Origin: Calditrichota bacterium
Lineage (GTDB): Bacteria; Calditrichota; Calditrichia; Calditrichales; Calditrichaceae
Assembly (NCBI GenBank): GCA_024278755.1
Contig: JAJRSO010000008.1
Span: 1 to 64,000, forward strand
Direction of reading: 5' to 3'
DNA: 64,000 nt
This document shows positions 3,201 to 17,231 of the stretch, one piece after another. The notes under the pieces were generated by a model. The model worked only from the letters and a program-made list of their open reading frames with translations. It was not told the DNA's origin and did not search any database. The translations under genes and the position numbers were made by a program. Each line of letters opens with the position of its first letter. The first letter of the stretch is position 1.

Positions 3201-5779
3201 AGGCTTCCATTTTATTTACCATCGAAAAAAACGGCGCTTTGTTAAAATCCGAATGGCTGCAAAGTAGCGGCGCGAAGAACGAACAGGTTATAAAAATTCC
3301 CATCACAAAAGAAATGCTGCCCAATGTTTACGCCTCCGTTTCGGTAATTCAGCCCCAGACGCTGGTGGAGAACGACCGCCCCACCCGTATGTACGGCGTC
3401 ATTCCGATTCAGGTGGAATCGGCTTCTACCCAGCTGCCGCTAACTATCGATGCGCCTGCCGAACTTCAGCCCGGCAAGCAGTTCAAAATACATGTTCAGA
3501 CAAAAGATAAAACACCCGCCCGGCTTACCATCGCCGTAGTGGATGAAGGACTGCTCAGTTTAACCCGTTTCTCTACGCCGGATCCATGGAAGGCTTTTTT
3601 CAAAAAACAGCGTCTAAGCGTACGTACCAGTGATCTGTTCGATCTGGTCATCGGTATGAATCACGGCGATATTTTAAACGCCTTTTCCATTGGCGGCGGA
3701 TTAACTTCCGAAGAAGCCTACCGTCAGGGTCAGCTTGCTCCACAGAAAAACCGCTTTAAACCGGTAAGCCTGTTCAGTGGCATTCTCACTACGGATAAAA
3801 ACGGAAAGGCCGAAACGGAATTTGAAATGCCCGATTACATCGGCGCCGTGCGGGTAATGGTCGTAGCCGTGAATGGAAACCGCTACGGGCACACACAGAA
3901 AACCGTTCCCGTTAAAAAAGCGCTGATGCTACTGCCTTCCCTGCCGCGGGCGGCTTCGCCGGGTGATTTTTTTAGCTTACCCGTAACGGTATTTAAGACA
4001 GACCCGAAAACCGAAGATATAAATGTACAGCTTTCGGTGAAGGGACCGTTACAGATTAGCGGCGCCAGTCAGCAAACACTGCATTTTGCCGAAGCGGGTC
4101 AGAAGAATTTATTTTTTGCGATTGAAGCAAAGCAGGCAACCGGTCTGGCCGCCGTTTCCCTGAAAGCACAGGGAAAATATTTTAGCACAACGTTTAAGAC
4201 GGAACTGCCCGTTCGTCCGGCCTCGCCGCGCCTGACGCGATACGTACAAAAGGCGGCGGAACCCGGACAAACGGTTTCGTTTAAAATTCCATCGGACGGA
4301 TTGCCCGGTTCCAATACGGCCCGCCTGCACATCCGGCGCCGGCCCAAGCTCAAACTAACCCGGCGTATTCTACAATTAATTCAATATCCGTACGGCTGTA
4401 TCGAACAAACGGTTTCGGCGGTTTTTCCGCAGCTCTATATCCAGGATTTTATTCCCAAATCTCTGGCCGCCAAACGCGATATTGATAAAGATATAAACGA
4501 GGCCATATACCGTCTCGGCCGTTTTCAGACAGCCTCCGGTGGATTTTCGTACTGGCCGGGGAATTATAACGTTTCGATATGGGGAACTCTGTACGCTGTA
4601 CATTTTTTAAGCGAAGCCCGTGAGGCCGGTTATCACGTTGCGCCCGCTTTGTTCGATAAAACGAAGGCCTTTATTAAAAAGCAACTACGCATTGCTTCCG
4701 ACTGGGAGCTAATGGAAAAAGTGTATGCCGCTTACCTGCTTGCCCTTGCCGGTCAGCCGTCAATCGGGTCTATGAATCTACTGCGCGAAAACCATCTCTC
4801 GGCGATGAACGATACCGAACGCTGGTTGTTGGCAGCCGCGTACGCCCTTGCCGGCAATAAAGAAGCCGCCGGTTCAATTGTTCGCAATACCGGAATTTCG
4901 GTTGCTAAGTATAAACATTTTTCACGCACATTCGGCTCCGCATACCGCGATAAAGCCCTTATTTTAGATCAACTTATCCGCTTTAAACGCTGGAATCTGG
5001 CCGCGCAGCTTGCCGACGAGCTGGCCGAAGCGCTTTCATCCGACGACTGGTATGCCACTCAAACCAGCGGCGTTATGCTGGTTGCCCTGGGGAAATATCT
5101 GCGGGCGGTGGAAGGACGGGGCGATCAGCCAAAACAAATGAGCGGCGTTATTATTCTGCCGGATGGAAAACGACTCTCCTTTAAAACGGATAAAATCAGT
5201 TACAGCATCGAAATCAATAAGGGATTCGGTAAACAAGTCACCCTGGAACTTGATACAAAGACAACGGTGCAACGGGTTTTTGCCGAACTGGAATGGTCGG
5301 GCCTGCCTTTGCGTTACACCGCTAAAGACGAAGCGCACAATTTGCGGTTAGAAATTAAATTTTTGGATGGAGACGGTATAAAAATTAATCCGGTCAGTCT
5401 TGCACAGGGCCAAAGCTTCTGGATGCATTTGCGAGTTAAACGATCGTCCGAACTTAACTACCCCATTAAAAACCTTGCGCTAACACAATTGTTGCCCGCC
5501 GGCTGGGAAATTGATAATTTTATGCTCACCTCCGGCGAACGTCCTTCCTGGATGAGCCGCTGGTATACGGGGCGCGAAACGTATCGTGATTTTCGTGATG
5601 ATCGGGCTATGTGGTTTTTTAATCTCGGCAACGAAAGTTTGGATTTTGTACTTAAAATAAACGCCGTAACCAAAGGCCGTTTTTTCCTGCCACCCACGCA
5701 GGTGGAAGCTATGTACAACCACAGCTACCGGGCACAGAAAGCCGGAAGGCCGGTGGAAGTAACCGGACAATCGTTTTAA
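278..5779 (+). CDS. Alpha-2-macroglobulin family lipoprotein (YfhM-like)
   Basis: Bacterial alpha-2-macroglobulins are large envelope proteins thought to trap foreign proteases in the periplasm through a reactive thioester. The 1833-residue length is normal for the family. The N-terminus is a lipoprotein signal with lipobox ALIGC (Cys19). MG-type beta domains follow. The thioester motif GCIEQT has its Cys at about residue 1374 and Gln at 1377, followed by the helical thioester domain and a C-terminal domain. The ATG at 278 follows an AAGGGG site at a good distance. PbpC lies downstream, the classic yfhM-pbpC pairing; in the known systems the two are thought to act together as defence and wall repair. 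A small DUF1937-like gene separates them here. Family assignment is firm; the protease-trap role is inferred from the intact thioester. Confidence 0.93.
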   Translation: MRFSVIPVLGLIFLALIGCQKTKPQSELSYPLETAKLISGSTAGYIRSSAAIRVVFSADIVDSTLINKPLGKAVFSFEPSIDGKTFWQNAHTLVFKPNTRLPLQQSWQAELDLPLLLNRQSESLQPFPFRFQTAGRKVKSFSVDFIPAKTDDPRFLRFKGSLTFTESITLEMLRSAAQLELNHSKVNISWQSDASGRNFTFISKPLARGKKKQTVTLSIDKDALNLSTGFTQTVSLPRFKTLSIADIQVQTEKAQPQLRLTFSDDLMAQQDLEGFIQVKPNLPLTLKITGKQVLVNGAFKHGQTYELRVKPGVRSKLAVKLKKEYKESIRIENLLPKIRFSANGVFLPSGNQQKILFQTVNVRRVDLKIIKVFDSNLGQFLHMGNLRGNKERRENFGYSVHNVGVDVIKKELDIGSEQNRWLQHELDLAPLLKKEKEGLFLIEISFTREDMIYEKNENILRYNRCYNYYNDPDSWGYLYQHGHIYKPLIISDLGITYKQAASDHYVFVTDLAQAKPLSGAEIKLYSFQNQPLASTRSDAQGKAIFHNIPDKVFYVTAEKNGQRSVVTPGTMRWNLSTFDTDGIQALNGGTRAFIYTERGVYRPGDTINLSAIFRNKQNTFPADHPVTLTIKNPQQQTVFQQTLKNGKDGFYSFSYTGESTDITGTYRAAFEAGGQTFYKPLQIETVLPERLKIALDAPKHLGPADKQLTLDISGAYLMGNPASNLKSAVSIELSGMERRFKQFKDFRFSNPSRDFRSARFNLYSGALDANGTKQILWNLPKLSAAPSAVTGRITVKVFEKSGRPAQSGLNISIDPYSYFVGLKKPKTRYGSVRTGSKIKVPVVLVDSCGNTKSGRTLRYRIYKNEQHWWYEYNSRDRFRLRFKQDRSTELLKEGALISGRLPVYFTFIAEERGQYFVEVQDKGIRGHSSGFFFQAYAWGSETGPGREAGVLTLRTDKEIYHPGEEAVLRFPAPEKASILFTIEKNGALLKSEWLQSSGAKNEQVIKIPITKEMLPNVYASVSVIQPQTLVENDRPTRMYGVIPIQVESASTQLPLTIDAPAELQPGKQFKIHVQTKDKTPARLTIAVVDEGLLSLTRFSTPDPWKAFFKKQRLSVRTSDLFDLVIGMNHGDILNAFSIGGGLTSEEAYRQGQLAPQKNRFKPVSLFSGILTTDKNGKAETEFEMPDYIGAVRVMVVAVNGNRYGHTQKTVPVKKALMLLPSLPRAASPGDFFSLPVTVFKTDPKTEDINVQLSVKGPLQISGASQQTLHFAEAGQKNLFFAIEAKQATGLAAVSLKAQGKYFSTTFKTELPVRPASPRLTRYVQKAAEPGQTVSFKIPSDGLPGSNTARLHIRRRPKLKLTRRILQLIQYPYGCIEQTVSAVFPQLYIQDFIPKSLAAKRDIDKDINEAIYRLGRFQTASGGFSYWPGNYNVSIWGTLYAVHFLSEAREAGYHVAPALFDKTKAFIKKQLRIASDWELMEKVYAAYLLALAGQPSIGSMNLLRENHLSAMNDTERWLLAAAYALAGNKEAAGSIVRNTGISVAKYKHFSRTFGSAYRDKALILDQLIRFKRWNLAAQLADELAEALSSDDWYATQTSGVMLVALGKYLRAVEGRGDQPKQMSGVIILPDGKRLSFKTDKISYSIEINKGFGKQVTLELDTKTTVQRVFAELEWSGLPLRYTAKDEAHNLRLEIKFLDGDGIKINPVSLAQGQSFWMHLRVKRSSELNYPIKNLALTQLLPAGWEIDNFMLTSGERPSWMSRWYTGRETYRDFRDDRAMWFFNLGNESLDFVLKINAVTKGRFFLPPTQVEAMYNHSYRAQKAGRPVEVTGQSF

Positions 5780-5796
5780 TCAGAAAGGATTTGTAA

Positions 5797-6123
5797 ATGG
5801 ACTTATGGTATTTTGCGCACCCCTACTCTTCCCCTTCCAAGGAAAATCATGCCGACAATTTCGCGTTGTGCAACGACCGGGCGGTTAAACTGCTTGATAA
5901 CGGTTACCTGATTTTCAGCCCGATTTCGCATTCGCATCCGTTGCAGCATGTAAAAGAATCTTCGCTGGATTTTTGGCTGAAATTGGATGTGGAATTTATG
6001 GATCGCTGCGACGGATTAATCTTGGCGCCCGGATGGGAGGAATCGGAAGGCTGCCGTTTTGAACACGATTATTTTAAAGAGAAAAACAAACCTATTTTGT
6101 TTTATGCGGAGATTATTAAATAG
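5797..6123 (+). CDS. DUF1937/DUF4406-like small protein (nucleoside deoxyribosyltransferase fold)
   Basis: This 108-residue soluble protein begins with the AHPYSSPS type motif, and continues with FSPISHSHPL and CDGLILAPGWEESEGCRFE, the pattern of the DUF1937/DUF4406 families. These are related to nucleoside 2-deoxyribosyltransferases, and many occur as phage or accessory genes. The catalytic role of this branch is not established. It starts 17 bases after the macroglobulin stop, behind an AGAAAGGA site, so it is probably cotranscribed with it. It separates macroglobulin from PbpC, which are usually adjacent, so it may be a later insertion into the operon. Confidence 0.75.
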   Translation: MDLWYFAHPYSSPSKENHADNFALCNDRAVKLLDNGYLIFSPISHSHPLQHVKESSLDFWLKLDVEFMDRCDGLILAPGWEESEGCRFEHDYFKEKNKPILFYAEIIK

Positions 6124-6240
6124 ACAAAAAGAACTCTGTTGGAGGTTTGTTTGTTTCAGCCTTCGGCTACGCTCAGGGCGTTGGGCTGAGTTTTTCCCGA
6201 CGTTATCGGTAACAAATACAAATAAAAGGAATTCTAAAAA

Positions 6241-8574
6241 ATTAGTATTCTTCCATTACCCCGTTTCCTCAGGCGCAAGTCCATCCGGATTTTCAGTGCG
6301 GTACTTTCGCTTTTTGTATTGTTCTATCTGGTCATTCCGCTGCCGTCTCCCCTTTTTAAAAATGATTACAGCACAGCTGTTCTGGATAAAGACGGAAAAA
6401 TACTGCGCCTGTTTTTAAACCACGACGAACAATGGTGTTTCCCTCCGGACAGCACGGCGGTTATTCCGGAGAAACTAAAGCAGGCTGTTTTAGTTTTTGA
6501 GGATAAATATTTTTATTACCACCCGGGTATCAATCCGGTTTCCGTGTTACGCGCGGCGCTTCAGAATATGCGGGCGGGCGGCGTAGTCAGCGGGGCGAGT
6601 ACCATTACGATGCAAACAGCCCGTTTAATGGCGCCCAAATCCAGAACCATTTGGCATAAAATTCTGGAAATGCTGCAAGCAATCAAAATAGAGTTGCGCT
6701 ATTCTAAAGATGAAATACTTAGCAACTATTTAAATCACGCGCCCTACGGCGGAAATATTATCGGCTACCGCGCCGCCAGCCTGCGCTATTATCGCAAGCA
6801 ACCGCGCGAACTGACCTGGGCTGAAGCAGCCACGCTGGCCGTACTGCCCAATGCGCCCGCTTTGATTTCTCCACATCAGAATCCGGATCGATTAAAACAG
6901 AAACGGGATCGGTTGTTAAAACGCATGCATAAGGCTGCTCTTTTTAATGACCAAACTTTTACGCTGGCTCTGGCCGAAGACGTTCCGCGCCTTTCCTACG
7001 CGCCGGATACCCACGCTGCACATCTTGCCCGGCGGCTAAAAACGCAATTCCCCCAAAATTTCATTCTGCATTCGACCATCGATTTAGCATTGCAGCAAAT
7101 GCTGGAAGAAATACTCCGGCGGCATAAAACCGAACTAAATGCTTTGGGAATTCAAAACCTGTCCGCAATTGTTACGGAAACCCAAAGCGGCGCCGTTCGC
7201 GCTTATGCCGGCTCTGCTGATTTTGTCCAATCGCAGGTAGACGGAATTCAGGCGCCCCGCTCCACCGGTTCCGTTTTAAAACCCTTTTTGTACGCTCTGA
7301 GTATGGATGAAGGCCTGCTTTTACCACAAACACTTATTAAAGATATTCCCTCTTATTTCGGCCCCTTTTCGCCTTTCAACGCCGATCAGGCCTACCGTGG
7401 AATTATTACGGCCAAACAGGCCCTGATTCAGTCACTTAACGTTCCCGCCGTGCGCCTGCTTAATACATTCGGTCTGGAGGTGTTTTACTATTTTTTAAAA
7501 CAGGCCGGACTCAGCACTCTCTTCCGCAGCGCCGAAGGATACGGACTGCCTCTGATTATCGGCGGAGCAGAGGCAACTCCCTGGGATATTGCCACGTTGT
7601 ACCGTGGTCTGGCGCGGGGCGGACGATTTTCATCTCTTTCTATTTTATCAAATCTACAAAAAACGGCTCATCCGAATCCGGATAAACAATTAATCAGCCC
7701 CGGAGCAGCCTGGTTAACGTTGAATAGTTTAAATGAAGTCAAACGTCCGGGAGCCGAATACTACTGGCGGCAGTATAGCGGGCAGCGTCCACTGGCCTGG
7801 AAAACGGGTACCAGCTACGGACAGCGGGACGCCTGGGCGGCCGGCGTAAATCCGCAGTGGACGATTGTGGTTTGGGCCGGGAATTTTAACGGCGAAGGAA
7901 ACGCCTCTTTAAGCGGCGCCCAAACGGCCGGCCCGGTATTATTTGATATTTTTAAACGGCTTCCTATTAACAACGAACAATTATGGTTTTTAAAACCGGA
8001 TAGCGCATTAAAAAAAACAACCCTCTGCCGACAAAGCGGTTTTGCCGCCGGTCCTTTTTGCCGGAACATAGAGGAAGCAGACGCGCCGCTCAACATGAAG
8101 CCGCTGGCCCTTTGTCCGTTCCATCAACAGCTTACGGTCAGCGCGGATGAAAAAGAACAGGTTTGTTCGCTGTGCTGGAAAGATGGACACAAAAAAATAG
8201 TACGCTTGCTGTTTCCGCCGGAAGTGGAACAATTTCTAAGGCAGAATGGAAATAAAACAGAATCTGCACCGCCACACCGCCGTTCCTGTCCGGCGCCGCC
8301 CGTAGAGAACCCGCTCACCATTATTTATCCCGGAAAGCCGGCTTCCCTTTTTCTGCCCCGTGATTTTGGCGGTTCTCTGCAAAAGCTCAACTGCCGCGCG
8401 GCGCACCAGCAGCCGGGCGAAACGGTTTACTGGTATCTGGACGGCCATTACCTGGGCAGTACCAAAGAACGGCACCAAAAAGCGCTACAGCCTGGCTGCG
8501 GCTGGCATAATTTGCTGCTAATCGATCAGGACGGGCATAAAGCCCGGACACGATTTTATATTACTCAACAATAA
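6241..8574 (+). CDS. pbpC: Penicillin-binding protein 1C (bifunctional transglycosylase/transpeptidase)
   Basis: The protein polymerises and cross-links peptidoglycan at the outer face of the inner membrane. It has a GT51 transglycosylase domain with the catalytic Glu in VFEDKYFYYHPG, a transpeptidase domain with SVLK (Ser near 7270) and KTGTS (7801), and a C-terminal PbpC-type beta domain with several cysteines. No ATG begins it. A TTG at 6319 lies inside the membrane helix and would cut off the basic RFLRRKSIR anchor and half the helix. The open frame continues up to a stop at 6235, and an ATT at 6241 sits 10 bases after AAAGGA (6225-6230); I prefer this rare start. ATT at 6247 is the alternative. 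Function is firm; the exact start is not. Confidence 0.88.
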   Translation: MSILPLPRFLRRKSIRIFSAVLSLFVLFYLVIPLPSPLFKNDYSTAVLDKDGKILRLFLNHDEQWCFPPDSTAVIPEKLKQAVLVFEDKYFYYHPGINPVSVLRAALQNMRAGGVVSGASTITMQTARLMAPKSRTIWHKILEMLQAIKIELRYSKDEILSNYLNHAPYGGNIIGYRAASLRYYRKQPRELTWAEAATLAVLPNAPALISPHQNPDRLKQKRDRLLKRMHKAALFNDQTFTLALAEDVPRLSYAPDTHAAHLARRLKTQFPQNFILHSTIDLALQQMLEEILRRHKTELNALGIQNLSAIVTETQSGAVRAYAGSADFVQSQVDGIQAPRSTGSVLKPFLYALSMDEGLLLPQTLIKDIPSYFGPFSPFNADQAYRGIITAKQALIQSLNVPAVRLLNTFGLEVFYYFLKQAGLSTLFRSAEGYGLPLIIGGAEATPWDIATLYRGLARGGRFSSLSILSNLQKTAHPNPDKQLISPGAAWLTLNSLNEVKRPGAEYYWRQYSGQRPLAWKTGTSYGQRDAWAAGVNPQWTIVVWAGNFNGEGNASLSGAQTAGPVLFDIFKRLPINNEQLWFLKPDSALKKTTLCRQSGFAAGPFCRNIEEADAPLNMKPLALCPFHQQLTVSADEKEQVCSLCWKDGHKKIVRLLFPPEVEQFLRQNGNKTESAPPHRRSCPAPPVENPLTIIYPGKPASLFLPRDFGGSLQKLNCRAAHQQPGETVYWYLDGHYLGSTKERHQKALQPGCGWHNLLLIDQDGHKARTRFYITQQ

Positions 8575-8843
8575 CCGGCAATTTGCTCTTTTTAATAAAT
8601 TGCTTTCCATCCCCTACTAAATTGTTTACCTTTTCGCAGCCTAATTCAGAACTTCATACTTTTATTTAGAATAAAATTCAGACTTCACTCCGACCGGGCC
8701 GGACAGGTTTAATTTTACGGATTAAGAAGCTCCGTAAATGCGCATTTCAGACCATAAAGCGTACAATAGAAATATGGGAAATCACCGTATGCATCGTTTT
8801 TTTATGCATACTATCATTGTTAACCATTAATGCAGGAGGTTTT

Positions 8844-9428
8844 ATGCGCCATTCTTTTTTTCGAACAGGGATCGCGGGCTTTATATTGCTTGCCACCATT
8901 CTGTCTGTTTCCATATTTGCGGGGGATAAAATTGAACTGAAAAAAAAGTTCTTTTCTCCTGTAAAATATTCTTTTAACGGTCAGGACCCTAAGCCGATTT
9001 ACACCTTTAGCGGAATGGACTGTCAGCCCCATTTTAAAAAAATAATCCGCCGCTGTCCGGACGCTTACAAAGAGATCAAAACCACCTATGCATACAATGG
9101 GGTCTCATTAGCCGGAAGCGCCATAATGCTTCTCGGTTCCGTACTTATGCTTTCAAATACCCTGCAGGAAGCGGAAGACGTTAACAACGGCAAACTAACG
9201 AGCGGTACGAGTGATTCATCGCCATTGGGATTAGTTATTGTCGGCGCCGTCGTTTCGATTGTCGGAGGATCTATTGCGGGCAGCCATTTAAAAAAGGGAA
9301 TACAAATTTTTAATAAAAAGCAAACTCAGGTTTCGGAAGAAGAAAAAGCCTCCGGCCTTAAATTACATCCCGGCTCTGATAAAAGTGCAAAGCGTATGGA
9401 ACAGAGGCTGGTAATACACCGGAAATAA
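8844..9428 (+). CDS. Secreted or membrane protein of unknown function
   Basis: A 194-residue protein that I do not recognise. AGGAGG at 8834-8839 fixes the ATG at 8844; an upstream TTG at 8817 has no such site. The N-terminus is a signal peptide or membrane helix (FFRTGIAGFILLATILSVSIFA). Two more hydrophobic segments, around GSAIMLLGSVLMLSN and LGLVIVGAVVSIVGG, are joined by a polar loop, and the tail is charged. Glycine spacing in the helices suggests a small packed membrane protein. It is the last plus-strand gene before the large minus-strand cluster and is separated from pbpC by 269 bases, so it is probably transcribed alone. Confidence 0.65.
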   Translation: MRHSFFRTGIAGFILLATILSVSIFAGDKIELKKKFFSPVKYSFNGQDPKPIYTFSGMDCQPHFKKIIRRCPDAYKEIKTTYAYNGVSLAGSAIMLLGSVLMLSNTLQEAEDVNNGKLTSGTSDSSPLGLVIVGAVVSIVGGSIAGSHLKKGIQIFNKKQTQVSEEEKASGLKLHPGSDKSAKRMEQRLVIHRK

Positions 9429-9439
9429 AAAACCGGACT

Positions 9440-10837
9440 CTAAAAACGGTTATTTATTTTTATTTCCAGCCCGTTAAATTCCGGTTCGTAGCGGCAAACG
9501 CCGCCCACACAGACAAAACCTTCTTTTCGGGAGCCGTACAGAATAGAAATACGCTGATTTTCCCAGAAATTGAAGCTAAGCGTTCCGTATAGCCAGTAGT
9601 TTTTGTCCTTCTTCCAGTTAGGCAACTGATCTTCGTTGGTCCACTCACCCACCAGCGCCGCGCTAAATCCGGGAGAACGGGAGAATTCCATCAGAACGAA
9701 TTCATTGTCGTATTCACTTAGATTGATTTTATTGGTTGTATGCTGGTGCTGGTAGCTTAAATGTAGCTGGTCCCGATCGCTCAGATTAAAGGCTCCGTCG
9801 ATCAGCGGAGTAATGTTTTCCGTTGAAATATCTTCGCTCCAGGCGATGGCGCCATATACCTCAAACTGCTGATGAAAATCCAGGTGTGCCTGAGCATACC
9901 ATTCGTTAAACAGAATCTGGTCTTCGTGGCTTCGTGTTTTGCTGTGGTTCAATACGATTTCCCACATTTCCCACGGAGTGATGGCCGCTTCGATCTGGTA
10001 GCCCTTTTCATTGTTTAAATTCAGGGCATGGGGATGGCGGTTAAGCAGCGAAAACGAGTGTTCCCGGCTAAGTGAGGGTGCGGCATTGTATTCCGTATCG
10101 TAAAAATTACGGAACGAAAGTCTGTCGTAATCTTTATATTCCATCGTAACGGATATTTTGTCAAAGGATAGATTAACCGCCGTGTAATGGCTCAGTTTAT
10201 TGGTCCAGTCCGGCTGCGCTGCTTCCGTATAAATATCCCACCAGCTCCGACCGTAATTCACGCGGCCGGCCCACATGGTGCCCGCCTCTTTTTTTCCATT
10301 TTCCTGACGCAGATAGCTACCGCCAATATGCAGGCCCTTTAACGGTTTTATCTCGCCGTCGAAACCATACAACATATCTTTACGCCGATTGTATTTATCG
10401 CGCATTTTACCGGCGATAATTTTCGTGCGAAGTTTGCGTCCTTTATAGCCGAACTTTAATCCGTCTAAATTGTTATCTACGCGCAGGTTACGATCTTCGT
10501 AAGTACGCAGGGTTAACCCTCGTCCGAACATTTCATAGAAATTTCCCAGGGTAAAATTCATTTTTTTCCAGCGGTACTGCATATAGCGGTAGGTAAGCGC
10601 ATACTCGTCCACAAGATAATCTTTTTCGAAGATAAAGGGATCGGGAGGATGATTTATTTCGTAGCGCAGACCGAATTTAAAAGATTTTAACTGGTAATTC
10701 AGATCGGCCCAGTTCTCCAAAATCTGACGGTCGTAATCTTTCCAATTGGTATAAACAAATTGATTTCTGAAAGAGACTTGTCCGAATGCAGAACCGGTAA
10801 AAAGCAGTAAGAGAAACAGAATACATATTTTTTTCAT
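9440..10837 (-). CDS. Outer-membrane beta-barrel protein, DUF6029-like
   Basis: The 465-residue protein has a clear signal peptide (MKKICILFLLLLFTGSAFG) and alternating aromatic and polar strands ending in a C-terminal Phe (INNRF), typical of an outer-membrane barrel. The segment LGNFYEMFGRGLTLRTYEDR, followed by VDNNLDGLKFGY, resembles DUF6029 proteins of Bacteroidota. The function of that family is unknown. It is the last gene of the redox cluster and starts 11 bases after the TlpA-like gene, so it is probably cotranscribed with it. That context suggests a partner for the secreted thiol proteins upstream, but this is only inference. Confidence 0.72.
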   Translation of the reverse strand: MKKICILFLLLLFTGSAFGQVSFRNQFVYTNWKDYDRQILENWADLNYQLKSFKFGLRYEINHPPDPFIFEKDYLVDEYALTYRYMQYRWKKMNFTLGNFYEMFGRGLTLRTYEDRNLRVDNNLDGLKFGYKGRKLRTKIIAGKMRDKYNRRKDMLYGFDGEIKPLKGLHIGGSYLRQENGKKEAGTMWAGRVNYGRSWWDIYTEAAQPDWTNKLSHYTAVNLSFDKISVTMEYKDYDRLSFRNFYDTEYNAAPSLSREHSFSLLNRHPHALNLNNEKGYQIEAAITPWEMWEIVLNHSKTRSHEDQILFNEWYAQAHLDFHQQFEVYGAIAWSEDISTENITPLIDGAFNLSDRDQLHLSYQHQHTTNKINLSEYDNEFVLMEFSRSPGFSAALVGEWTNEDQLPNWKKDKNYWLYGTLSFNFWENQRISILYGSRKEGFVCVGGVCRYEPEFNGLEIKINNRF

Positions 10838-10848
10838 TATAACAATCT

Positions 10849-11319
10849 CTATTTAAGCAGTTTCCGGATTTCTTTCTTCAGTTCGGCTTCATCTCCCTTT
10901 CGGTAGCCGCTATGGGTAAACACAACTTTCCCTTCTTTGTTTACCAGCATGGTATAAGGCACTTCATTCACCAGCATTTCCTGAGCCATTTCACCGCTGG
11001 GATCTAGCAGCCAGGAAAAATCATATTTATGTGATTTAACATAGTTTTTTACCTTGGCCAGGCTGCGCGGCGAATCGATGGAAATGGCAATGATTAGCAC
11101 ATCGTTATCGGGAAAATCTTCCTTAACCTGCTGCAGGGCAGGGTGTTCTTTTTTACAGGGCAGACACCAGGTAGCCCAAAAGGAGATCACAACCGCATCA
11201 TGGTCTAAGTTTTCTTCCAGTATAAAGGTATCGCCGTTAACATCATCCAACTCTAACTGTGTTACATTTTGTGCGCCTATGAGCAGGGGCAGCAATAGTA
11301 TAAAAAACAATTTTTTCAT
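10849..11319 (-). CDS. TlpA/ResA-like thioredoxin-family protein
   Basis: A 156-residue exported thioredoxin-fold protein. After a signal peptide (MKKLFFILLLPLLIGA) comes the redox motif WATWCLPCKKEHP and the family cis-proline region NEVPYTMLV. TlpA/ResA proteins usually reduce disulfides in periplasmic proteins such as apocytochromes. The start is placed at the ATG at 11319 because the residues upstream of it in the open frame (MFYYLGIGNWEF) do not form a signal. No cytochrome biogenesis gene is nearby. The neighbours are two Omp28-type proteins with their own CxxC motifs and a repeat protein with cysteine pairs, so its substrate may be a neighbour. Confidence 0.9.
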   Translation of the reverse strand: MKKLFFILLLPLLIGAQNVTQLELDDVNGDTFILEENLDHDAVVISFWATWCLPCKKEHPALQQVKEDFPDNDVLIIAISIDSPRSLAKVKNYVKSHKYDFSWLLDPSGEMAQEMLVNEVPYTMLVNKEGKVVFTHSGYRKGDEAELKKEIRKLLK

Positions 11320-11402
11320 AACGTTTCCCGGTTTAATTTTTAGAATCGGAAAGCGGGAAAATTCCCAATTTCCGATTCCCAAGTAATAAAACATCGCAGA
11401 TA

Positions 11403-12809
11403 CTATTTCAACAGCAGCATCTTACCGGTTTTGATCTGACCGTTTGCTTTTAGCTGATACAGATACGTTCCGGAAGAAAGATGGGATGCCTTAAATAAAA
11501 TATAATGCGTTCCCGCTTCCTGCCGTTCACTTACCAAATTCCGAACCACTTTTCCGGAAATATCATACACGGTAAGCTCAACCCGACTAACGTACGAAAG
11601 CTGATAGCTGATAGCGGTTGTCGGATTAAAGGGGTTGGGATAATTACCCAGCAGCTCAAAAGAGCCAACGGTGTTCCCCGGAGTATCACCGATAGCGGTG
11701 GAAGAGGTATGCAGTGAAAAGGCCTGACGTACCGTATCGCCTTCACCGGCGGCGTAAAACTGAATCAGCACATCACCGTCTGCCGGCGTTTCATCGGAAT
11801 AGAAAGTAACGATATATTCCAGACTGTCTCCGTTCATAATCAGGGAACTCACCGTATCAACCGTCGCCTGGGGGCAGCTTCCGAAACAAAGGGTGGTCGA
11901 CCAGCCGGCGGGAATATTATTCTGTTCCCGCACCATAAAAAAAGTCTGGGCTTTGTCGCTATTGTTGTACACATATCCGGAAAATTCATGGCTCTGTCCG
12001 GCCAGGGTATCGGCGGCGGTATCGGTAACACTGACAGAGAAGACAGGTTCGGGAGTTACCGTAATCGCCGTAAAGACCTGTTCAATTTGATCGCTGCTAA
12101 TGGCATCAACAAAACGCAATAAAGCGGAGCCCTCTCCTGCCTGCATATCCGAATTAAACGTAATATCAAAAAAGAGACTGTCGCCCGGGTCTACCGTTTC
12201 CGAGGCATTATCGACATAAGGCGGATAACAGGTTGCCCCAAAACAGATGGAAGTGGTCCAATTTGCAGGAATATCGTTTGTCACCCGGTACATCTGAACA
12301 ACCGTCGTTACATCGCTCTGATTATGGACATACCCTTCAAATACCAGACTTTCGCCCTGAGTTCCCTGTTTTACCGTATCTTCCATCGATATCCGTATGC
12401 TTTTATTTAGTTCTGTTGATACGGAAAACAACATACTATCCTTTTCGGAAGTAACGGCATCTGTAAAAACTATCCATGCCTGTCCCGATGCCGGGACACT
12501 GCTGGTATTGAATGTAATGTCAAAAAACAAACTATCTCCCGGATCCACCGCTTCCGACGCTTCGTCCACATAAGGCGGATAACAGGTTGCCCCAAAACAA
12601 ATTGATGTGGTCCAGTCTACGGGGATTTCATTTGTTGCGCGTTTCACCTGAAGAACCGTTGTTGCGGAACCCGTATTATGAACATAGCCTTCAAACACTT
12701 TTACTTCGCCGGGAGCGACCTGTGCCGTCGAATCCGGAATATCCAGATAAAACGTACTGGCCGAAAAAGCATAAACGGTAAAAAGAAAGATCAAAATTAC
12801 TTTTTTCAT
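11403..12809 (-). CDS. T9SS-targeted protein with three Cys-containing beta repeats
   Basis: The 468-residue protein starts at the ATG at 12809 with signal peptide MKKVILIFLFTVYAFSAS. Three tandem domains of about 110 residues follow. The first two share ATNEIP/VTNDIP and WTTSICFGATCYPPYVD; the third has TTLCFGSCPQATVD. Each therefore carries a close Cys pair that could form a disulfide. The C-terminus is a type A T9SS sorting tail (GNYPNPFNPTTAISYQLS ... GKMLLLK), so the protein should be carried across the outer membrane and the tail removed. It lies between an Omp28-type gene and a TlpA-like gene, suggesting that it is a substrate or scaffold of the redox cluster. No enzymatic motif was seen. 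Confidence 0.82.
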   Translation of the reverse strand: MKKVILIFLFTVYAFSASTFYLDIPDSTAQVAPGEVKVFEGYVHNTGSATTVLQVKRATNEIPVDWTTSICFGATCYPPYVDEASEAVDPGDSLFFDITFNTSSVPASGQAWIVFTDAVTSEKDSMLFSVSTELNKSIRISMEDTVKQGTQGESLVFEGYVHNQSDVTTVVQMYRVTNDIPANWTTSICFGATCYPPYVDNASETVDPGDSLFFDITFNSDMQAGEGSALLRFVDAISSDQIEQVFTAITVTPEPVFSVSVTDTAADTLAGQSHEFSGYVYNNSDKAQTFFMVREQNNIPAGWSTTLCFGSCPQATVDTVSSLIMNGDSLEYIVTFYSDETPADGDVLIQFYAAGEGDTVRQAFSLHTSSTAIGDTPGNTVGSFELLGNYPNPFNPTTAISYQLSYVSRVELTVYDISGKVVRNLVSERQEAGTHYILFKASHLSSGTYLYQLKANGQIKTGKMLLLK

Positions 12810-12827
12810 AACAACCTCAATAAAAAG

Positions 12828-12849
12828 AAGCGCCGTATGCACGACGCTT
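12828..12849 (-). terminator. Putative intrinsic terminator inside the redox cluster
   Basis: AAGCGCCGT and ACGACGCTT form a nine-pair stem with one mismatch. Read on the minus strand it is followed by CTTTTT. It sits in the 70-base gap between the stop of the Omp28-type gene and the start of the repeat-protein gene, so it may reduce transcription of the three downstream genes. Confidence 0.55.
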
Positions 12850-12879
12850 TTTCATTATTTATGTTAAGGAAACACTTCT

Positions 12880-14775
12880 CTATTTAATTAAAACCATTTT
12901 ACGCATTTGGGTAAAATTTCCCGCCGTTAAACGATAGATGTAGATGCCGCTGGATAAACCGTTTGCGTCAAAGGAAGCCGAATAAGAGCCTGCATTTTGT
13001 TTAGAGCTAACCAAGGTGCGCACTTTTTGTCCTGCCGCATTAAACACCGTCAATTCAACCTGGCTGGTAGCCGACAACTGATAGCTAATTGTTGTTGTGG
13101 GATTAAATGGATTAGGATAATTCTGTTGCAAAGCAAATTCCGTTGGTAAGTTTTGATCATTTGCCTTATCAATCGCCGAAGGACCATCCGAAAATTTAAC
13201 CTTTGCGGCAACCAATATTTCTTTATTATCTTCATTCTGAACAAATGCGATAAATTCACAGTTATTTTTTACAACTCCGCTGGGGATTGTAAACGAGACA
13301 TCGTCAACAATTTGTGTGCCCACTGTGGGTGCGGAACTGCCGGAATTAAAGGTTTTCCCATTGGCATCCGGATACATTTCACGTTCAACAAAATGTAGTG
13401 AATCCATGGAAGTTTCCCAATTATATGCAATATGCGATTCACAAAGCGCATAGCGTAATTTTAAATTTTTAAGATTTGTAATACTCTGATAGGTTGTCGT
13501 CGATTGCATATTTATGGTACTGCCGTTCTCAGTATACCGTAACGACATTGTAAATGGTGTATATTCTGCGCGTTCAGCGAAATAATTACTTTCATAGCCG
13601 GAATAGACGCCAGACCAGTCGCTCCCCGCTGCCGCTCCGCCAACCTGTGTACGATCGCCGCCAAAAATACAAGTCGGGTATCCTGTTACACCATAATAAC
13701 TACGGCGGTTGGAAGCAGCGGTATTATCAAACGGGTCGTTTCCGCTAAAGCCACCGTGGTAAGCAATAATGGCCACATTATCCGGATAAGCGTTATAAAG
13801 GCTATCCAATGCTTCGGCGGCACCCGGGCAATACGTACATTCCGTATCGGTACATTCTTCGGGAACAACGACATCTTTTTGGTTAGAATATGAATTAATA
13901 AACAGAGACTGAGAGTCATTACTACTGTCCATATCGCCGGTAAGAACCGTTTTAGCAAAGAAGGTATAGCCTACTTTTTCAAATGTATAATCAGCAAACG
14001 TGACATCAAAATTTGTACCTGCCGCCAGGCTGGTTACTGTTTTGGTGTCAATTACAACAGGGTTATCATTCCAATCATAGTACCCGAACTGGACAGTAAA
14101 AGTTTCCGTATTTAAGCCGTCATTACGAACCGTTGCTTCCGGTGTTACAACCGTATTGGCAGGATAGTGGCTATCCATATTTAAGGAAACGACCATCGCA
14201 TCGTGTTCGGATGGTGTTGTAATCTTTACATCATCAATAAACCACTGGTAATTCGGCGAAGCGGGATCATGGTAATGAAAGGCCACATAAACCGTACTTT
14301 CACCGATATAGGCCGAAAGATCAACCATAACAGCTGCACCAGAAAAGCCATTGTTTGTATGGTTGGCCGGGGTCATATCCAGAATGCTGGTAAAAGAAGA
14401 GGCCGAGCTGGCATTTGTAGTGGATACTTCAATGGAATTTGTTCCTCCGCTAGCGGCCCAGCCGCTTTCATCTTCATAAAAATAGAGTGTAGCACTTGAT
14501 GCGGTGGATAAGTCCACAGCAGGGGTTACCAGCCAAACATCTTTATCATAAAGATAGCCCGTCTCCGCCAGGGCTGAGTTGCTACCTGTACGCGCTTTTT
14601 CTGAACTCTGGGCCCATTCTTCTAAACTAAAATCAGAAAAACGTGTCCATCCGCTGGGTGGGAAACTTCCTTCGAACGATTCGTTAAGCAGGGTAGAAAG
14701 AGTGCTCTGCGTCCCTGCAAAAGCAAGACTTAAAAAAGTCAAGCTCAGCACAATTGATTGTAGCAACGATTTCAT
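12880..14775 (-). CDS. Omp28-type thioredoxin-fold protein with T9SS sorting tail
   Basis: The 631-residue protein begins with signal peptide MKSLLQSIVLSLTFLSLAFAG. Next is a choice-of-anchor/MAM-like beta domain (about residues 28-190, starting LNESFEGSFPPSGW), then a beta segment, then an Omp28-like thioredoxin-fold domain with CTDTECTYCPGAAEALDSL near residue 310 and YGVTGYPTCIFGG as the cis-Pro-like loop. It ends with a type A T9SS sorting tail (NYPNPFNPTTTISYQLS). It is probably exported to the cell surface with a redox-active or disulfide-bonded CTYC site. It starts 10 bases after the PEGA/Omp28 gene and is cotranscribed with it. The role of the Omp28 family is poorly known. Confidence 0.82.
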   Translation of the reverse strand: MKSLLQSIVLSLTFLSLAFAGTQSTLSTLLNESFEGSFPPSGWTRFSDFSLEEWAQSSEKARTGSNSALAETGYLYDKDVWLVTPAVDLSTASSATLYFYEDESGWAASGGTNSIEVSTTNASSASSFTSILDMTPANHTNNGFSGAAVMVDLSAYIGESTVYVAFHYHDPASPNYQWFIDDVKITTPSEHDAMVVSLNMDSHYPANTVVTPEATVRNDGLNTETFTVQFGYYDWNDNPVVIDTKTVTSLAAGTNFDVTFADYTFEKVGYTFFAKTVLTGDMDSSNDSQSLFINSYSNQKDVVVPEECTDTECTYCPGAAEALDSLYNAYPDNVAIIAYHGGFSGNDPFDNTAASNRRSYYGVTGYPTCIFGGDRTQVGGAAAGSDWSGVYSGYESNYFAERAEYTPFTMSLRYTENGSTINMQSTTTYQSITNLKNLKLRYALCESHIAYNWETSMDSLHFVEREMYPDANGKTFNSGSSAPTVGTQIVDDVSFTIPSGVVKNNCEFIAFVQNEDNKEILVAAKVKFSDGPSAIDKANDQNLPTEFALQQNYPNPFNPTTTISYQLSATSQVELTVFNAAGQKVRTLVSSKQNAGSYSASFDANGLSSGIYIYRLTAGNFTQMRKMVLIK

Positions 14776-14785
14776 AAACGTCTCC

Positions 14786-15958
14786 TTAGTTAATAGATGA
14801 TTGATAAATTTCTTTCGTATTAATATCCTGAATAAAAACGATAATCTGTGAATATGTATAGTCCCATTCCGGCCACTGAAATGTGTAATTTAATTTCATC
14901 CCGTTAATGGCGTCGCCTAATCTGGAACTAAGAAACCGACGAAAAACAAAGTTAAAATCCGTTAACCCATTGAGTCCCGGGGGATCGCTCATATGAATTT
15001 CATTTTCAACAACCGCCACAAACAAGCGTAGATTAGGATTATTTAACACATTGGCAAAATCAAACAATTCGATATCAACCCGTAATTCTGCATCCTGTTT
15101 CTGTTTTTTTACAGATATTGCCAGTTGTGTTTGCTGATTATCTAATAATTGGGTATAAGCTGAAACAACTGCATTATAATCCGTCGCATCCACCGTATTT
15201 GACCCATTCATTCTAAGAGCTGGCAATGCAAAAATCTGATAAACATTTTGCACCCGCTGATCCACATCATCCGGAGAGACCAGATAAAACGGATCGTTTA
15301 CGGAAGGCCAATTGGCATAATACTCCATCAAAGCATAGGTTTTATCCGCGTGTTCGCTGCGAAAACGTTCTAAGTTTTCGGCAGATGTCGTACAGGGCAG
15401 ACAAGAAACGTTTCCAAACGATTCAAATAAGATACACTGTTCAATTTCCAAATCCGTTTTCCCTGTGAGCAGAGAATCTTCAACAATCTCAAAATCCTGT
15501 TCAAACACCTTAAAACCATTTTTTCGGGCGCCAATGGAATGCAAACCCGGTTCCAGGCGAATCGTATCCGGTGTAAATTTCGCGGTAGACTGTCCGTCCA
15601 CAAATATTTCGGCGCCGGAGGGGGTGCTTTCTAGAAAAAGCGAACCGATATGCACAATTTCTTCCAGCAAAAAACGGACACGTTTCAGAGAATCTTTTTC
15701 CACCTCTACCGTCAGAGAATCCATATCCGCTTTATATCCTTCTTTTATAACGGAAAGGACATGGCTTCCCACAGAGATATTTTTTAACGTATCCGGAGTG
15801 GATTTGTTGACAAAGAGGCCGTCCAGAAAAATCGATGCGCCCGTCGGTTCCGAAGTGACCAAGACACTGCCGGTTTTTTCATTTAAACCGATATCTACTG
15901 GCTGTTTTACACCACAGGAAATAACCAATAAAAGGATGAGCAAATGGCTTTTACGCAT
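14786..15958 (-). CDS. PEGA-domain lipoprotein fused to an Omp28-like thioredoxin domain
   Basis: The 390-residue protein carries lipobox LVISC (Cys15), so it is anchored in a membrane. Two PEGA domains follow (about 30-97 and 103-168); each has the pattern T/S-x-P-(S/T)-GA-x-I-F-(V/L)-DG and ends in a GxHxxxxxKxGY/F-type turn. PEGA modules are thought to bind surface polymers. The C-terminal 220 residues resemble Omp28 and contain FGNVSCLPCTTSAENL, a thioredoxin-like CLPC site. It is the first gene of the minus-strand redox cluster, so its promoter should lie in the 412-base region upstream. The architecture suggests a surface-anchored thiol protein. The exact partner is unknown. Confidence 0.78.
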   Translation of the reverse strand: MRKSHLLILLLVISCGVKQPVDIGLNEKTGSVLVTSEPTGASIFLDGLFVNKSTPDTLKNISVGSHVLSVIKEGYKADMDSLTVEVEKDSLKRVRFLLEEIVHIGSLFLESTPSGAEIFVDGQSTAKFTPDTIRLEPGLHSIGARKNGFKVFEQDFEIVEDSLLTGKTDLEIEQCILFESFGNVSCLPCTTSAENLERFRSEHADKTYALMEYYANWPSVNDPFYLVSPDDVDQRVQNVYQIFALPALRMNGSNTVDATDYNAVVSAYTQLLDNQQTQLAISVKKQKQDAELRVDIELFDFANVLNNPNLRLFVAVVENEIHMSDPPGLNGLTDFNFVFRRFLSSRLGDAINGMKLNYTFQWPEWDYTYSQIIVFIQDINTKEIYQSSIN

Positions 15959-16370: not shown

Positions 16371-17057
16371 TTAATTTGGTTCAACTGAAACTAATTTCAA
16401 CAGTTTTGACTGCGGGTATTTTTTATGCCAGTCCATCCAGTTTATCAATTCCGCCGGCCAACTCTTTAAACTTCTGTCGGCAAATGCGCCGCTGACACAA
16501 TGCAAAACCTGTTTTTCCGTATACGGATACCACATGCTGCGCGTCTCGTAATCGGCTAAAACAAAGGTGTTAATGTAAACCCATCCGCTTGCGGTAAATC
16601 GTAAAACCTGTCCGTTCAAAGTTCGGCTGTACACGACAGTCAATTTTTCCAGCGGTCAGTAGGCCACCGCGACAGGATGCTCCCCAAATTGATCATTAAC
16701 GATTTCGCGGCTTTTAAGAATACTCAGCGCATAGGCTCGTGGATCACCTTCAATTTCCACGCCAAGCACCATAAATGTATCCAAAGAATCGGGGTATCCC
16801 ATATCTCCGGGAAGAAAGAACTGCGGATTGTTAATAGGCTTTATGCGGCCAATCCCCAGGCCAAATCGAAACAAATCCGGATCCCAATGGTAGCGCTGCA
16901 CGGCATGTGTTATATCCCAATCATATCCGTCCTGATCGGTAATCGTTATTATTTTAACGGCGCTGGAATCTGCAGAATTTAATCCGGTCATTGTCTCTTC
17001 GTCCGAACAGGCTAGTGAAAATACCGACCCGATGATAAATAAAAATAATATCTGCAT
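16371..17057 (-). CDS. DUF3179 lipoprotein gene with an in-frame UGA at the conserved Cys: candidate selenoprotein or nonsense mutant
   Basis: Two open frames are joined in the same frame by one TGA (16656-16658). The first part is a lipoprotein (lipobox FSLAC) with the DUF3179 signature DPRAYALSILKSREIVND and HPVAVAY; the second continues PLEKLTVVYSRTLNGQ and LRFTASGWVYINT, which is also DUF3179. In this family the residue after the Tyr is normally Cys (YCPL), and TGA stands exactly there. A hairpin about 20 bases downstream fits the loose bacterial SECIS rules. TGA is an ordinary stop in other genes here. Translation may stop, giving a truncated protein, or insert selenocysteine. The ATG at 17057 follows GAGG and is preferred over 17069. 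DUF3179 function is unknown. Confidence 0.7.
16623..16643 (-). promoter_or_regulatory. Possible bacterial SECIS-like hairpin
   Basis: On the minus strand, directly after the in-frame TGA, CTGT and ACAG pair around the loop CGTGT, extended by TTG/CGA across one A-C mismatch. The loop begins 20 bases after the TGA and has G as its second base, which agrees with the loose consensus for bacterial SECIS elements. Such short hairpins also arise by chance, so this is weak without selenocysteine genes elsewhere in the genome. Confidence 0.25.
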
Positions 17058-17231
17058 CGGCAGCCTCATTTTTTTGTGAATGCATATACTTCGAATGAAA
17101 CGTATTTTATTTCTGACGTTACGGTAAGCGGAACCTTGTTCCGTTTCCTCACGAAAGGATCAAATTTGTTAAACATCTTTTAACCGTTTAAATTACAGTC
17201 TTTGCATCCAAATATAAATAGGAAAACCATA

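Follow-up and report, generated by a model that had tools for sequence, protein, structure and literature searches.

What do a run of genes for thioredoxin-like proteins, a cysteine-paired repeat protein and an outer-membrane barrel do together at the cell envelope? We address this question for five open reading frames (ORFs), all on the minus strand and within positions 9440–15958 of a 64,000-nucleotide stretch of DNA from a Calditrichota bacterium (contig JAJRSO010000008.1; the whole stretch is called the window hereafter). The sequence-only reading of this DNA had proposed an extracytoplasmic relay that forms or repairs disulfides in cargo of the type IX secretion system (T9SS), or that delivers electrons across the outer membrane. 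The genes are present as it described them, judged by ORFs, Pfam and NCBIfam searches and cysteine positions. Read in the direction of transcription, their products are a PEGA/Omp28-related lipoprotein (CLPC), a choice-of-anchor J/Omp28-related protein (CTYC), a protein of three repeats with a cysteine pair in each, a TlpA-like thioredoxin (CLPC) and a DUF6029 protein (Table 1). About 10 bases separate the genes at two junctions and 8–83 bases at the remaining two, depending on the choice of start codon. Our analysis leaves very little doubt that the cluster is a conserved functional module; that it is a reductive periplasm-to-surface thiol–disulfide module coupled to T9SS control is a reading for which the evidence stands in even balance.

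The gene set is retained across the phylum of the window, where DUF6029 (PF19494) was found in 24 of 40 genomes. We read 20 regions from 18 DUF6029-positive genomes; the window genome is one more, and five others (G006, G015, G017, G024 and G028) were left out. In all 20 regions a TlpA gene directly precedes DUF6029 and shares its strand, and six of them (L033, L036, L037, L038, L040 and L041) have the full five-gene order of the window. Contig ends cut three regions (L034, L035 and L039), and L042 lacks the second gene. The remaining regions carry a shorter or permuted set in which a single-repeat PorA-like gene is followed by Omp28 proteins, TlpA and DUF6029. A second type of locus has neither Omp28 nor PorA-like genes: L048, L050 and L051 have a T9SS-tailed thioredoxin after DUF6029 and a second TlpA ahead of it, and L052 consists of TlpA, DUF6029 and a shorter T9SS-tailed ORF. 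Loci of this second type, with at least two TlpA genes and a T9SS-tailed thioredoxin, also include L125, L127 and L203.

The same neighbours recur beyond the phylum. A contig scan with a DUF6029 alignment, from which we took the best 80 of 92 loci, returned records titled Calditrichota, KSB1, Ignavibacteria, Melioribacter, Zixibacteria, Gemmatimonadota, Eisenbacteria and Bacteroidetes, among others. The titles of metagenome-assembled genomes may err: L110 is titled Actinomycetota, yet its gene lengths equal those of the Calditrichota locus L109. The Deltaproteobacteria-titled L121 likewise resembles a mislabelled Calditrichota assembly. In a separate draw of 296 genomes, from the phylum to which an Ignavibacteriales genome belongs, 80 had DUF6029; this search, together with further genomes, yielded a Bacteroidota set of 56 neighbourhoods. 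Neighbours were counted with custom hidden Markov models in loci flanked by at least 3 kb on both sides (44 from the contig scan, 52 from Bacteroidota). TlpA lies within 600 bp of DUF6029, or is fused to it, in 39 of the 44 and 45 of the 52; an Omp28 gene lies within 6 kb in 33 and 41 and a PorA-like gene in 35 and 20, respectively. Over all 80 contig-scan and 56 Bacteroidota loci, TlpA density is 11.2 and 8.6 hits per 100 kb up to 6 kb from DUF6029 versus 0 and 1.1 farther away. The corresponding figures inside and outside 6 kb are 12.5 versus 1.4 (contig scan) and 8.3 versus 0.4 (Bacteroidota) for Omp28, and 8.6 versus 0.3 and 4.1 versus 0.75 for PorA-like genes. We attach no p-value to these densities because the sets partly overlap and their members are kin; several of L033–L052 and some Bacteroidota regions are contig-scan contigs, so the counts are not additive. 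The possibility that the genes occur together only in this genome, which the sequence-only reading had named as fatal to it, does not hold, since they co-occur in records of several phyla. Nor do the cysteines vary among homologues, its other stated vulnerability: the pairs are nearly invariant.

Selenocysteine-type TGA codons bear on the chemistry of the module. Both proteins at its head are named Omp28-related because they fall below the Pfam Omp28 gathering score (PF11551, 34.9 bits). The lipoprotein scores 32.3 bits for Omp28 and 63.8 for PEGA, and its neighbour scores 31.0 for Omp28, 61.5 for choice_anch_J and 52.6 for Por_Secre_tail; a second scan for Omp28 gave 34.4 and 33.8 bits. NCBIfam already holds a model of an Omp28-related selenoprotein (Omp28_seleno, NF045500), to which the choice-of-anchor J protein gives 87.6 bits, short of the cut-off of 200. 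The profile of the Omp28 domain matches the thioredoxin 1fo5 (E 3e-4) and, over profile positions 266–398, which form the C-terminal half, the solved Omp28 structure 2r2c (E 9e-4). The window pair thus shares with 2r2c and Omp28_seleno a thioredoxin-like half with a C/U-xx-C motif and a C-terminal half resembling 2r2c; it differs from these families in scoring just under the Pfam and far under the NCBIfam cut-offs and in its extra N-terminal PEGA or choice-of-anchor J part. Among 31 aligned relatives of the lipoprotein, C186, C189 and P246 are invariant. Of 156 distinct Omp28 matches, 142 have CxxC and nine have UxxC, in which an in-frame TGA replaces the codon of the first cysteine (L105, L103, L064, L120/L046 and L122/L045); in the other five, at contig edges or partial, the site is not visible. 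SelA was found in all five UxxC genomes searched and in one of three CxxC control genomes. By the established chemistry of thioredoxin-fold selenoproteins, a selenocysteine as the nucleophile of a thioredoxin-like motif is strong evidence that the Omp28 domain catalyses redox reactions; of all parts of the module, this one at least would be catalytic. We consider it probable that the thioredoxin parts of the module do redox work. One Zixibacteriota contig (L105, CP070839.1) has four such TGA-containing Omp28 genes in a row at about 2920–7230, with SelA a few kilobases upstream.

The TlpA-like protein belongs to the thioredoxin-fold TlpA-like superfamily by its AhpC-TSA/Redoxin match (74.1 bits, cut-off 26) and its CLPC motif. 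We call it TlpA-like because it reaches none of the curated NCBIfam cut-offs: ResA, the best, gives 79.0 of 170 bits, TlpA 55.7 of 230 and DsbE 51.4 of 123. Neither a lipobox nor a T9SS tail was found in it, and its true start is likely an internal ATG near 11319. The closest solved relative is 2m72 (E 5e-23), which we take to be the TlpA-like protein PG_2175 of Porphyromonas gingivalis. A CxPC motif, the pattern of TlpA and ResA and not that of DsbA, is kept in 67 of 68 cluster TlpA proteins of the contig scan and 46 of 48 from Bacteroidota. The protein resembles periplasmic thioredoxins of the TlpA/ResA/CcmG type in its Redoxin fold, WCxPC motif and signal peptide; its genomic partner is an outer-membrane barrel, whereas theirs serve the maturation of cytochromes or oxidases.

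The repeat protein is PorA-like, and the known PorA of P. gingivalis also carries a cysteine pair. A profile of the repeat family matches PDB 6KJK, the N-domain of PorA (E 1.9e-4), and the alignment sets the PorA segment LCFGQCMLP onto the cysteine pair of the family. An AlphaFold model of window repeat 1 (predicted local distance difference test, pLDDT, 97.1) retrieves 6KJK as the first PDB match both in Foldseek (E 1.3e-6) and in VIA-align (Z 13.9, 113 aligned residues, root mean square deviation (rmsd) 2.3; next row 12.0). A profile was needed, since the PorA-like protein of L175 as a lone query against PDB gave chance matches only. The window protein has the T9SS tail (Por_Secre_tail 39.8 bits, cut-off 27; TIGR04183 42.5 bits, cut-off 23), the immunoglobulin (Ig)-like N-domain fold and the neighbours TlpA, DUF6029 and Omp28 of the PorA family. 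Its signal peptide was read from sequence alone, and its true start is likely an internal ATG at about 12809. The cysteine pairs lie at residues 82/87, 200/205 and 319/323, with C-x4-C spacing in the first two repeats and C-x3-C in the third. PorA itself has 246 residues comprising a signal peptide, one Ig-like domain and a C-terminal domain (PMC7712824), a layout that matches the single-repeat proteins of most loci. PorA (PGN_0123/PG2172) and the window protein thus share fold, signal peptide, T9SS tail and cysteine pair (LCFGQC versus SICFGATC), and differ in having one Ig domain versus three and in gene order.

The pair is a stable feature of this family. C-x2/3/4-C occurs in 62 of 65 PorA-like domains of the contig scan and eight of nine from Bacteroidota, counted with no cysteine filter; L122 and L172 have a wider spacing, and the middle repeat of L061 and a weak match in L083 have no pair. 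In an alignment of 55 PorA-like domains, to which loci outside the window contributed only rows selected for having the pair, Asn29 and Trp50 are also invariant and Pro47 nearly so, with no conserved His or Met. An Omp28 and a PorA-like domain can be fused in one polypeptide, for example in L058. Natural fusions of Omp28, PorA-like and T9SS-tail parts were seen in L058, L072, L109, L115, L116 and L129. We take a CYPP motif in the repeat protein to resemble N-domain motifs of DsbD, which prompted a comparison with DsbD_N (PF11412). Pfam gave no match of the PorA-like repeats at E ≤ 0.1, and no DsbD chain is among the best 50 structural matches listed for repeat 1, a fold relation still being possible; homology to DsbD_N was set aside and the likeness kept as an analogy only.

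A counterpart of the cluster appears to exist in P. gingivalis. TlpA, DUF6029, Omp28 and PorA genes are contiguous on one strand in three Porphyromonas-like genomes (L215, L216 and L217), an order that fits PG2175–PG2172, in which PG2173 is an Omp28 lipoprotein and PG2172 is PorA (PMC9722745). By this order PG2174 would be DUF6029, an assignment made through L215–L217 because the 99 genomes drawn in a search for P. gingivalis itself reach at best 69% identity to 2m72. A comparison of vesicle proteins (PMC4335976) lists PG_2174 only as uncharacterised. The structure of PorA is solved, and the protein both belongs to T9SS and regulates it (PMC7712824, PMC8754138): normal T9SS expression requires it, via PorXY–SigP (PMC7712824), and it is abundant in the Sov–PorV complex (PMC8754138). 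We found no discussion of its cysteines or of the neighbouring genes in the available text of either paper.

The assignment of the last gene to the DUF6029 barrels by the sequence-only reading stood (252.8 bits, cut-off 27); that reading had listed no cysteine in it, yet the mature protein has a sole cysteine pair, C443/C448 (CVGGVC), near the C-terminus. The model (pLDDT 93.2; predicted template modelling score 0.85) has 24 long strands, and the pair sits in a short hairpin (residues 440–444 and 447–451) between the last two. The hairpin probably lies in an external loop of the modelled barrel because both termini are presumed periplasmic, as is usual. C-x4-C occurs within the last 50 residues in all 56 Bacteroidota loci, which came from searches that did not require the motif, and in 76 of the 80 contig-scan loci, a count biased by the use of CxGGxC as one of the two scan patterns. 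The four misses are L122, which is masked, and L124, L128 and L129, which have cut or damaged C-termini. In the phylum of the window, 20 of 21 aligned sequences have the pair, and the exception, L045, is masked at the site. TlpA and DUF6029 form one polypeptide in L115, L129 and L171, with TlpA at the N-terminal end (Pfam was run on L115 and L171); these fusions locate TlpA at the barrel, presumably on the periplasmic face.

The best PDB fold matches of the DUF6029 model are the usher barrels FimD and PapC, with FimD in first place (Z 20.5, 361 aligned residues, rmsd 4.3, 10% identity); the pore may therefore be large. The likeness to chaperone–usher barrels extends to the approximately 24 strands and the Z score, whereas 10% identity amounts to no sequence similarity and the cluster has no chaperone gene. 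Ushers combine 24 strands with a plug and N- and C-terminal periplasmic domains; the model consists of a signal peptide and a barrel, and only the barrel portion of the ushers matches it. Polysaccharide export was considered for DUF6029, since some export barrels show HHpred similarity to it (PMC9603273) and AlgE is among the Foldseek matches; it was rejected because the conserved neighbours found are thioredoxins and T9SS proteins.

Genomic context ties the module to T9SS and suggests an electron donor. SprA_N, of the T9SS pore, was found in 228 of the 296 genomes and DUF6029 in 80, of which 79 have both (Fisher p 7e-10, kinship ignored). The window genome encodes PorX (694 bits, cut-off 300) and, elsewhere than in the cluster, DsbD with its N-domain; VKOR and DsbB gave no match in this genome, which is 95.8% complete. 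Because DsbD is present and VKOR and DsbB were not found, the reductive direction is favored. The DsbD pathway offers an analogy, in that thioredoxin electrons pass to a membrane protein with cysteine pairs and on to an Ig-like domain and further thioredoxins; it differs in that the proposed module would sit in the outer membrane and its PorA-like repeats have no sequence match to DsbD_N.

These observations bear out part of the interpretation offered by the sequence-only reading: the cluster is extracytoplasmic, of a thiol-redox kind and linked to T9SS, and it is kept in many FCB genomes. The PorA likeness speaks against its view of the repeat protein as generic cargo in need of repair. A redox function draws support from the selenocysteine-type codons of some Omp28 genes, the TlpA–barrel fusions, the CxPC motifs and the co-occurrence of DUF6029 with the T9SS pore gene. 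In the mechanism we favor, inner-membrane DsbD would probably donate electrons to the periplasmic TlpA-like protein, which the DUF6029 barrel would dock at its periplasmic side, sometimes as a single polypeptide. The barrel would offer its cysteine hairpin in the last, probably external, loop, so that electrons would cross the outer membrane. Surface Omp28 proteins, one a lipoprotein presumably on the outer face and one exported by T9SS, would then reduce or reshuffle disulfides of candidate surface-protein targets. The PorA-like repeats may act as partner or sensor: their C-x3/4-C pairs may alternate between the thiol and the disulfide state, and the repeats may inform the PorX pathway of surface redox or of T9SS status. 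Taken in its full form, as a 'DsbD of the outer membrane' running from DsbD through TlpA and the DUF6029 hairpin to thioredoxins at the surface, selenoproteins among them, and linking surface redox to T9SS expression through PorA as redox-switched partner, this scheme is tentative. The invariant cysteine pair of DUF6029 strengthens the relay idea. Electron passage through the outer membrane is its weakest step: TlpA is periplasmic and the barrel hairpin probably external, and it is hard to see how the two would meet. Several further points weigh against the scheme. TlpA is missing from the 6 kb around DUF6029 in six of the 52 flanked Bacteroidota loci, and no PorA-like gene was found nearby in 32; one PorA-like repeat of the nearest relative (L038 and L061, which are the same locus) has lost its cysteine pair; and of the 228 genomes with SprA, 149 gave no DUF6029 match. 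T9SS as such can therefore do without the module, which is not part of its core machine. The cysteine pairs of PorA and DUF6029 could also be plain structural disulfides, and the available text of the PorA paper mentions no disulfide (PMC7712824).

That last point leads to the main rival, an assembly role that we hold to be just as tentative. Here the PorA and DUF6029 pairs would be structural disulfides, TlpA their dedicated folding factor (reductase or isomerase), and DUF6029 would serve PorA and Omp28 as channel or anchor and would not carry electrons. C-x3/4-C in a β-hairpin is also typical of a structural disulfide. PorA still reaches the surface in P. gingivalis T9SS translocon mutants (PMC7712824), and an adjoining barrel of usher size could be its route. 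The 24 long strands of the DUF6029 model and its first match to the pilus usher FimD agree with such a channel, but a barrel-fold match is uninformative on function. Selenocysteine-type codons at the first Omp28 cysteine argue instead for a catalyst, and the CxPC motif in nearly all barrel-adjacent TlpA proteins also speaks against a role in assembly.

Two narrower explanations fit less of the evidence. The genes might be grouped as a shared regulon only, all serving a T9SS surface programme with no common redox mechanism; the presence of SprA_N in 79 of 80 DUF6029-positive genomes and the T9SS tails on many surrounding genes would agree, but natural fusions, cysteine pairs kept in differing folds and direct TlpA–DUF6029 adjacency in several phyla make this improbable. 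Still less credible is maturation of a metal site, in which TlpA would hold the cysteine pairs reduced and thereby let PorA or DUF6029 take up a metal such as copper; rhizobial TlpA does this for CoxB and ScoI. A C-x3-C motif is similar to a CuA-type pair, the kind of site that TlpA-like proteins are known to reduce; against this, the 55 aligned PorA-like domains lack a conserved His or Met, and the spacing of the pair varies between 2, 3 and 4.

A periplasm-to-surface thiol module would bear on several questions about surface proteins. Both what PorA senses and how surface-located PorA reaches an inner-membrane kinase are left open in the discussion of PMC7712824. The cluster gives PorA conserved cysteine-pair partners in many phyla, and hence a specific chemistry, and the PorA relative in the set suggests that T9SS secretion may be tied to thiol chemistry at the cell surface. 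We know of no established route by which periplasmic electrons reach protein thiols exposed on the outside of the outer membrane; the module is a concrete candidate for one, and it provides a first functional hypothesis for the uncharacterised families DUF6029 and Omp28. If the outer-membrane relay is correct, surface Omp28 proteins would be secreted disulfide reductases, which would suggest a mechanism for Paraprevotella clara 00502. This T9SS-exported surface protein carries an Omp28-related annotation; it recruits trypsin, which then degrades itself, and bead-coupled recombinant 00502 suffices in a cysteine-containing medium, EGEF (PMC9477747). It is possible, by analogy, that 00502 acts through reduction of trypsin disulfides by its thioredoxin-fold Omp28 part, which would explain the self-degradation; the main text of that paper uses none of the words disulfide, disulphide, thioredoxin or redox.

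The sequence-only reading knew of no published pathway made up of these genes. We found no account of it as a redox module in the open-access literature, the scope of our search, although PG2172 (PorA) and PG2173 (the Omp28 lipoprotein) are already in print. The same search found no paper combining Omp28 with a selenoprotein and no mention of PGN_0124–0126. The pieces are therefore partly known, as periplasmic thiol pathways and a T9SS component, and the mechanism is possibly new.

Table 1. Features of the five-gene cluster in the window.
Feature	Position	Strand	Basis
Lipoprotein: lipobox Cys15, two PEGA repeats, Omp28-related thioredoxin-like domain with CLPC (186/189)	14786..15958	-	Pfam, profile search
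Choice-of-anchor J and Omp28-related domain with CTYC (313/316), T9SS sorting tail	12880..14775	-	Pfam, NCBIfam
PorA-like protein: three Ig-like repeats with a cysteine pair each, T9SS sorting tail	11403..12842	-	Pfam, profile, model
TlpA/ResA-like thioredoxin: WCLPC (77/80), signal peptide	10849..11394	-	Pfam, NCBIfam
DUF6029 outer-membrane β-barrel	9440..10837	-	Pfam, model
DUF6029 cysteine hairpin CVGGVC (C443, C448)	9494..9511	-	sequence, alignments, model

The cluster is flanked by genes of other kinds. A 203-residue ORF on the plus strand (8817–9428), convergent with DUF6029, matches no Pfam family, and none of NCBIfam above cut-off. Also on the plus strand, 278–8574 holds genes for 1833 and 751 residues, read as alpha-2-macroglobulin-like and penicillin-binding protein 1C-like; a gene pair of similar size adjoins DUF6029 in L036. 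Just upstream of the cluster, a DUF3179 gene on the minus strand (window 16371–17069) contains one in-frame TGA at residue 138 (VAYUPLE). Reading through this codon raises the Pfam score from 39.7 to 110.4 bits, and SelA is present in the same genome; the gene probably encodes a selenoprotein.

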